Positions 7,929 through 9,330 of a stretch of 64,000 nucleotides of DNA are shown piece after piece (positions within the stretch are counted from its first letter, which is position 1; each line of letters begins with the position of its first letter). Source of the stretch: Gilliamella apicola (GTDB lineage Bacteria > Pseudomonadota > Gammaproteobacteria > Enterobacterales > Orbaceae); contig NZ_CP007445.1 in assembly GCF_000599985.1 (NCBI RefSeq), forward strand, positions 2,294,001 to 2,358,000. The letters run 5' to 3'. The notes below the pieces were generated by a model. That model was given only the letters and a program-made list of their open reading frames with translations, was not told where the DNA came from and made no database searches. The position numbers and the translations under genes are program-made.

Positions 7929-8171
7929 ATGGGTATTTTAAGTTGGGCTATTCTAGGATTAATTGCCGGTTGGATTGCAAAGTTTTTTATGCCACTTGGA
8001 CGTGTAGGAGTATTTAAAACTATTCTATTAGGAATTGCAGGCGCTATCGTTGGTGGGTATATAAGTACATTCTTTGGCTGGGGAACTGTGACAGGATTTA
8101 ATTTCCCTAGTTTATTTATCTCAGTCTTAGGCGCAATATTACTTATTTATATCTACCGTCTAATGAAATAA
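7929..8171 (+). CDS. GlsB/YeaQ/YmgE family small membrane protein
   Basis: An 80-residue, very hydrophobic protein of the transglycosylase-associated (GlsB/YeaQ/YmgE) family. The sequence shows the typical start MGILSWAILGLIAGWIAKF, a glycine-rich second helix (ILLGIAGAIVGGYI) and a third helix near the C-terminus, so three membrane spans. Family members are linked to general stress responses, but the molecular function is not known. The ATG follows AAAGGAAATTATC. It appears to be a single-gene unit with its own terminator. Confidence 0.85.
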   Translation: MGILSWAILGLIAGWIAKFFMPLGRVGVFKTILLGIAGAIVGGYISTFFGWGTVTGFNFPSLFISVLGAILLIYIYRLMK

Positions 8172-8188
8172 TACTTTGTTTTACACAA

Positions 8189-8217
8189 AATTGGCGGGGA
8201 TTCACCGCCAATTGTTT
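8189..8217 (+). terminator. Terminator after the GlsB-like gene
   Basis: AATTGGCGG (8189-8197) and CCGCCAATT (8205-8213) form a strong stem followed by GTTTATT. Lies 17 bases after the stop codon. Confidence 0.75.
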
Positions 8218-8290
8218 ATTAAAAAGAGAATTGAAATTTGTATCGACTGGATGACATCAACTATTTATTTCTGTAAACCATAGCTTATAT

Positions 8291-8569
8291 TTAACATATC
8301 AAATTTCTTAAGTATTTAATCAGGCGCCATATACACAAACAAAAAATCACAATGAAAAATGAAAATAAAGATGAAATGAAAAAGAAAAATAAACCATCTA
8401 TTATAGTAATAGGCCACTTAAAAATTAAGTAAGATACAAACACAACAATATTTAAAATAATGAAAGGATACCTAATTGGTGTATCTTTCCAGGTTACCAA
8501 CTCACAAATACCTCTCAAACCTTCTTCAACGATAGTTTCTACAATAATACCAATAAAATCGCCTGGCAT
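8291..8569 (-). CDS. Small two-helix membrane protein, copy 1
   Basis: A 92-residue protein that I cannot assign to a known family. Two hydrophobic segments are visible (about 34-53 and 58-84), with an amphipathic N-terminus and a basic C-terminus. It is a paralogue of the product of 8844-9146; both share FIILNIV, a LIFKWPI linker, GL-x2-F-x-ISSL-x-SF and a terminal WR-x-IK. It is transcribed divergently from the truncated cysS head, just as copy 2 is divergent from intact cysS. Small paired membrane proteins of this size include immunity proteins and toxin-like peptides, but nothing in the sequence proves either. Confidence 0.6.
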   Translation of the reverse strand: MPGDFIGIIVETIVEEGLRGICELVTWKDTPIRYPFIILNIVVFVSYLIFKWPITIIDGLFFFFISSLFSFFIVIFCLCIWRLIKYLRNLIC

Positions 8570-8682
8570 ATGATTAAATTCTAATTACAGTACATAGAAG
8601 CATTATAATAAATAATTTCACGATAACAATATTTTTGTTATATTATTTAGCAAACTTCATTAAATTAAACCTAAAGATTGTA

Positions 8683-8757
8683 ATGTTAAAAATATTCAAT
8701 ACGTTAACTCGAGAAAAAGAAACCTTTAAATCAATTTATCCCAATAAAATTGGCTAG
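8683..8757 (+). pseudogene. Truncated head of cysS (24 codons then stop)
   Basis: The reading frame from the ATG at 8683 encodes the first 23 residues of cysteinyl-tRNA synthetase (starting [18 protein letters not shown]) with one change from intact cysS (Tyr19 for His19), then Gly and TAG at the duplication junction. It carries an exact copy of the 100 bases upstream of cysS. It is a by-product of the tandem duplication and cannot make a synthetase; whether the short peptide is translated is unknown. Confidence 0.9.
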
Positions 8758-8771
8758 GATTACCCATTAAT

Positions 8772-9330
8772 TATTTATTAAAGAGTGAATTGAGATTATT
8801 ATTGACTAGATACCTACAACCATTTATTTCTGCAAACTTTAAGTTATATTTTACATTTCTTAAAATGTTTAATGAAGCGCCACATACCCCAACAAAAACT
8901 TATAGTCAAAAATGAAAGTAAAGATGAAATCAAAAAGAGTAACAAACCCTCAGTTATACTAATAGGCCACTTAAATATTAAGACAAATGCAAACATAACA
9001 ATATTTAAAATAATAAAAGAAACCCAGAATAGTTTGCTTTTAAAAGTACTTTTTGACCATCCTAATTCCAGCATATCTTCAGAAAATACATGAATGAAAC
9101 CACTTGCAATGTAACCAAAAAAGTAACCAAAAACTTCGCCTAGCATATGATAAAATTATAATTACAGTACATAGAAGCATTATAATAAATAATTTCACGA
9201 TAACAATATTTTTGTTATATTATTTAGCAAACTTCATTAAATTAAACCTAAAGATTGTAATGTTAAAAATATTCAATACATTAACTCGAGAAAAAGAAAC
9301 TTTTAAATCAATTCATCCCAATAAAATTGG
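8772..9330. repeat. Tandem duplication, right unit (small membrane gene plus intact cysS head)
   Basis: Right copy of the duplication described at 8215-8757. It contains the leftward small membrane gene copy 2, the shared divergent promoter region and the start of functional cysS. The shared intergenic segment holds a palindrome ATAACAA-5-TTGTTAT (9200-9218, copied at 8623-8641) that may be a regulatory site. Confidence 0.9.
8844..9146 (-). CDS. Small two-helix membrane protein, copy 2
   Basis: A 100-residue protein of unknown function and a paralogue of the product of 8291-8569. Hydrophobic segments lie at about 40-60 and 66-88, joined by the shared LIFKWPI motif; the C-terminus is basic ([10 protein letters not shown]). 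The N-terminal 35 residues differ from copy 1 in sequence and length. The stop and start positions keep the same spacing to the cysS promoter as in copy 1 (577-base offset). Retention of an open frame in both copies despite heavy divergence argues for protein-level function. Confidence 0.6.

Follow-up and report, generated by a model that had tools for sequence, protein, structure and literature searches.

A tandem duplication that ends inside cysS in Gilliamella apicola, and the unequal divergence of its parts

In Gilliamella apicola, the interval before cysS carries a tandem duplication whose right end lies inside this essential gene and whose parts have diverged unequally. The promoter region and cysS start of the two units are nearly the same and their small membrane genes are very different, a pattern that suggests, with a confidence we place near the midpoint, an older duplication followed by gene conversion of the promoter block. 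Gilliamella are inhabitants of bee guts. The window, by which we mean the whole 64,000-nt stretch of DNA analysed, comes from a genome (G000) assembled as a single contig of 3.14 Mb.

Two units that share an octamer

Two head-to-tail units lie between cysS and a gene of the Transgly_assoc family, presumably yeaQ and referred to here as yeaQ-like (Table 1). Both contain a terminator site, a small membrane gene read leftward, promoter-like sites arranged back to back and the opening 71 nt of cysS. The direct repeats are 96% identical between 8549-8753 and 9126-9330, 82% between 8310-8466 and 8863-9019, and 76% between 8187-8300 and 8746-8859, and the duplication is not a product of chance. The original prediction, made from the sequence of the window, had proposed a tandem duplication with a small leftward membrane gene and the first 71 bases of cysS in both units, and it is confirmed in these respects; the extent it gave, 8215..9330, takes in the two units, except that the left one begins slightly further left, at 8187.

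Table 1. Features of the yeaQ-cysS interval in the window.
Feature	Position	Strand	Basis
yeaQ-like gene, left neighbour	7929..8171	+	Transgly_assoc family, Pfam PF04226 E 4.9e-12
Left unit: terminator, small gene L, divergent promoter-like sites, truncated cysS head	8187..8753	.	repeat comparison
Right unit: decayed terminator, small gene R, divergent promoter-like sites, start of intact cysS	8746..9330	.	repeat comparison
Octamer AAAATTGG, left edge of left unit	8187..8194	+	sequence match
Octamer AAAATTGG, junction of units	8746..8753	+	sequence match
Octamer AAAATTGG within cysS, right edge of right unit	9323..9330	+	sequence match
Terminator-like hairpin 3' of yeaQ, intact (left unit)	8189..8213	+	-14.5 kcal/mol
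Terminator copy, decayed (right unit)	8748..8772	+	-1.0 kcal/mol; 5 unique substitutions in 31 nt 8746-8776
Small membrane gene L, 92 aa	8291..8569	-	open frame, hydropathy
Small membrane gene R, 100 aa, likely ortholog of nearest relatives' single gene	8844..9146	-	open frame, divergence
121-nt block identical to 9159-9279: back-to-back promoter-like sites and first 20 nt of cysS	8582..8702	.	alignment, consensus scan
121-nt block identical to 8582-8702	9159..9279	.	alignment, consensus scan
Truncated cysS head, 24 codons then TAG	8683..8757	+	open reading frames
Intact cysS (cysteinyl-tRNA synthetase), 463 aa	9260..10651	+	Pfam PF01406 E 9.7e-148

The same octamer, AAAATTGG, stands at both outer edges and at the junction, and the chance of at least 8 bases being shared at a junction is about 3e-4 at this base composition. 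Its place at both edges makes a short repeat the probable site of the duplication. Direct head-to-tail copies, with a short identity common to both ends and the junction, mark this as a real tandem duplication that probably arose by microhomology. Recombination or replication slippage between the two 8-nt repeats, one in the terminator after yeaQ and the other in cysS codons 22-24, would duplicate in tandem the unit running from the terminator through the small membrane gene and divergent promoters to the first 71 nt of cysS, giving exactly the observed order with cysS whole at the right end. The right copy continues into the full gene, so that cysS would never have been broken, whereas the left head would have been reduced to 24 codons that lead nowhere, and the terminator copy on the right would have lost its use and decayed. 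The truncated head with its stop had been predicted correctly, and its TAG was created at the unit junction; the proposed regeneration of the head of cysS is a plain consequence of a tandem duplication with its right end inside the gene. The interval is a clear example, from nature, of how a duplication can have one end within an essential gene and do that gene no harm.

Single units in the relatives and exchange at the slot

We compared 35 Gilliamella genomes, including G000, the only strain of its species in the sample. In 29 of the 35, yeaQ and cysS lie on one locus and the interval was read; in the other six (G003, G004, G011, G015, G020 and G023) a yeaQ-like gene is absent from the 1.5 kb that precede cysS, and the small proteins gave a single match, of 12 residues (E 0.06), in the 0.6 kb before it. 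Two units occur in G000 alone. The nearest relatives, G002, G005 and G014, have one unit each and may have lost a second one later; the same two units with proportional divergence in all relatives, the outcome that would have spoken against the original prediction, are not what the genus shows. These three are close kin, with small-gene dN of at most 0.009 and cysS dS of only 0.03-0.07 among themselves.

A leftward small membrane gene occupies the slot in 10 of the 35 genomes and belongs to family A1 (G000, G002, G005, G014), A2 (G027, G019, G009, G029) or A3 (G013, G026). Relic-like A2 pieces are found in G031 (E 1e-6, one stop), G008 (1e-4) and G012 (0.002), by E-values from a small database with no composition correction. 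The next relative, G007, has kept the length of the interval (495 nt), which holds no frame of at least 60 residues. Remaining intervals are short, at 179-256 nt, or 286 nt in the relic-bearing G012 and G031; the exception, 626 nt in G017, is without a 55-aa frame in the leftward direction. In the A3 protein of G026 (L023), the final 18 residues match in another frame, and a frame break near the gene end therefore seems present.

The lysC-cysS interval seems prone to duplication. That of Gilliamella sp. App6-5 (L032, 2104-3778) contains an additional yeaQ-like gene that has diverged (85% over 205 nt), and 2.7 copies of a 192-bp tandem repeat lie between it and the first; G016 has a second yeaQ-like gene too.

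Sequence around the slot also appears to have moved between species. G013 (L021) and G026 are 74-84% identical in the lysC end, yeaQ and cysS body, but the promoter reaches 96% and the opening 90 nt of cysS 99%; their small genes give dN 0.38 and dS 0.27. The cysS-body tree rejects the G013/G026 pair (AU p 0.0006) and the promoter-plus-head tree rejects G013 with its body sister G024 (AU p 9e-6), both groups having been picked after the alignment was inspected. G028 and G010, neither of which has a small gene, are 97% identical in the interval, 93% in the promoter and 96% in cysS 1-90, compared with 84% in cysS 91-390, 90% in 391-990 and 91% in yeaQ, but 95% in cysS 991-1380. These patterns across the genus point to exchange among species of the short region just before and at the cysS start, as by ordinary homologous recombination, and small genes can be gained or lost along with it.

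Such exchange is all that stands of the cassette exchange that the original prediction gave as one of two readings, to be checked by comparing the lysC-cysS interval across relatives; the comparison gave single units, different small-gene families at one slot, and allelic exchange of the G013/G026 kind. A search for A1 in 60 genomes found the slot to hold all five strong matches (E 1e-43 or better); six weak matches (E 2e-4 to 0.003) fall at other places, within frames of 297-327 residues. In 44 genomes, A2 had four strong matches and one relic, all at the slot, and one weak match elsewhere, and A3 two strong and one weak at the slot and two weak elsewhere. With no strong match away from the slot in any of these searches, the sequences carry no sign of mobile cassettes.

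The A1 proteins are strongly hydrophobic, with about two membrane spans predicted from hydropathy. No curated family was reached above cut-off in Pfam (L, R and A2), PHROGs and NCBIfam (A1) or PADLOC (four small proteins); for DUF4282 (PF14110), L scores 17.1 bits against a cut-off of 27, and R is not listed. From their placement, their fast protein change in some branches and their repeated absence we infer a possible part in conflict with phages or rival bacteria. Such change is not found in every branch, given that four A2-family pairs have dN below dS (0.03-0.24 versus 0.05-0.65). It is an unlikely but conceivable extension that the slot is a diversifying locus, in which a fast small membrane protein evolves under arms-race-like selection and its alleles move between species with the cysS promoter and head as homologous anchors; G000 would then carry two divergent alleles side by side, a tandem 'two-allele' state maintained because the proteins differ in use.

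Unequal divergence and the history of the units

The small genes L and R lie on the same strand, both frames are open, and the gaps in their alignment (6, 12 and 12 nt) are all multiples of three. They have diverged as heavily as had been claimed, with 32% of compared sites different and proteins 42% identical, at dS 0.42 (interval 0.23-0.73) and dN 0.42. Against the three nearest relatives, R gives dS 0.15-0.17 (interval 0.06-0.26) and dN 0.24-0.25, and L gives dS 0.42-0.47 (interval 0.27-0.67) and dN 0.23-0.24; the dS intervals of all three comparisons are wide. Neighbouring genes, measured against the same relatives, have dS 0.15-0.17 (cysS), 0.22-0.24 (lysC) and 0.11-0.27 (yeaQ), which places R at the level of cysS, inside the yeaQ range and somewhat below lysC, and L at about 2.5-3 times R. 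In the 3' non-coding stretch L differs from the relatives at 24% of sites and R at 9-10%. The R gene itself differs from theirs by 19-20%, more than the non-coding sequence to either side of it (9-10% and 4-6%). In the small gene, quartet sites that include G007 are split 2, 3 and 6 among the groupings and support none of them.

Agreement between the units is concentrated in the promoter block. Some 100 identical non-coding bases had been predicted; there are 101, inside the identical run that extends into cysS. Across the promoter (9147-9259) 2 of 113 sites differ, both no more than 13 nt from the small-gene start codon, and across the cysS head 3 of 71. Both units have a leftward TTGTTA-16-TATAAT and a rightward TTCACG-16-TATATT with TG before the second hexamer. 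The claim of an identical divergent promoter holds for the sequence of the 121-nt block; as promoters, the sites are consensus matches, in a scan that gave 7 sites against a shuffle mean of 10.6, no excess over shuffles.

Four promoter sites carry an allele common to L and R and absent from all three relatives. G007 also has the relatives' allele at two of the four, and the window's base at each of these two occurs in 1 of 24 other, remoter genus members. A promoter tree joins L and R as sisters (support 98/81). The paralogs thus share derived changes that the relatives lack, within a bounded tract, as gene conversion would leave them. L and R have an allele in common at 4 of 5 variable sites in the core promoter block, against 11 of 111 upstream (Fisher p 0.0009), the limits of the core having been picked after the data were seen; the whole promoter plus head, a fairer measure, has 4 of 9 (p 0.014). 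Set against the terminator and 3' non-coding sequence, at 2 of 26, the promoter plus head gives p 0.027 and the core p 0.002. The longest run of polymorphic sites with L equal to R is 7 (permutation p 0.0002), or 4 when only relative-fixed sites are counted (p 0.017). When constraint is normalised for, changes private to L/R versus those private to G007 or the relatives stand at 4:7 in promoter plus head against 50:104 (p 0.75), and at 1:7 in the promoter alone against 17:15 (p 0.054, a marginal deficit), though the G007 small-gene region aligns poorly. The promoter and head are constrained and together show no deficit in this test, so that conversion is favoured and not proved.

The dead parts of the units serve as further clocks. 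At the same junction, the left cysS head, a dead remnant, has 2 changes in 71 and the right terminator 5 in 31 (p 0.026), and the head therefore looks refreshed. The right 3' non-coding stretch adjoining the decayed terminator, which is of the same age, has only 3 unique changes in 67, and this weakens the terminator as a clock. Relative to the three nearest genomes, the left terminator differs at 10% of sites (3 differences in 31) and the right at 16%.

We infer a history in which the duplication is probably older than, or about the same age as, the split from the nearest relatives, which would have kept, or gone back to, one unit. Later recombination between the units, by gene conversion or unequal crossing-over, would have re-homogenised the promoter and cysS start, whereas the two small genes, with too little similarity for efficient recombination and a fast-changing protein sequence, would have kept diverging. 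Conversion of the promoter block, the better half of the original reading for this window, is the best fit to these data. An old duplication requires a loss in the relatives that left no trace, which counts against it.

The main rival is a recent tandem duplication, after which the left small gene was replaced by homologous recombination from another Gilliamella lineage, with a crossover just upstream of the start codon. The exchange of promoter and cysS head between G013 and G026 gives it a precedent, the L/R differences start near the small gene's start codon, and the synonymous distance of L from the relatives is similar to that of G007 for cysS and lysC (0.39-0.53). The search of the 35 genomes, however, gave no allele with a closer match to L than its nearest relatives have, the left-edge terminator resembles theirs, and the decay of the right copy argues for a longer time since duplication. 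We regard such an import as somewhat unlikely.

A simple duplication after the split, with the contrast produced by promoter constraint and very fast, perhaps diversifying, small-gene evolution, would fit the excess of dN over dS between R and the relatives and between G013 and G026, as well as the constraint-normalised count in promoter plus head. It does not account for the fact that L is more divergent at synonymous sites and in the 3' non-coding stretch as well, where selection on the protein is no explanation, or for the concentration of shared alleles in promoter and head relative to the terminator and 3' non-coding sequence, and the A2 pairs indicate that fast protein change is not general. 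We consider it rather improbable, and the earlier view that this is not a simple recent duplication is probably right, on the strength of the shared-allele contrast, though the constraint-normalised count lacks that contrast. An assembly artefact or two-strain mixture, suggested by the rarity of the arrangement alone, is most improbable in a single-contig genome whose small-gene copies differ so much and whose right terminator and left cysS head show decay expected only once the duplication existed. One locus assembled twice is ruled out by the small-gene difference and the lost stem of the right terminator (-14.5 versus -1.0 kcal/mol).

Comparison with known systems

The duplication is ordinary in kind. 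What it adds is a set of internal clocks, in the dead head and terminator, the pair of small genes with open frames and the two copies of the promoter, that record the unequal fates of the parts of one duplication. PMC11111574 describes 9-bp microhomology borders used for tandem duplication in E. coli. Here, too, the units are head-to-tail and share 8 bases at the junction; unlike that system, this duplication is natural, has been kept long enough for 32% gene divergence, and consists of exactly two units with the right end inside an essential gene. Concerted evolution of paralogous genes in prokaryotes is the subject of PMC6053082. The likeness is that, over part of their length, the two units resemble each other more than they resemble the relatives; the difference is that the process would here be confined to the promoter and the 5' gene end. 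Fast-evolving orphan small membrane genes are a general notion. L, R and their counterparts resemble them in being about 92-116 aa long, hydrophobic, and present or lost between species, and differ in that their strong matches lie at one position only, beside cysS.
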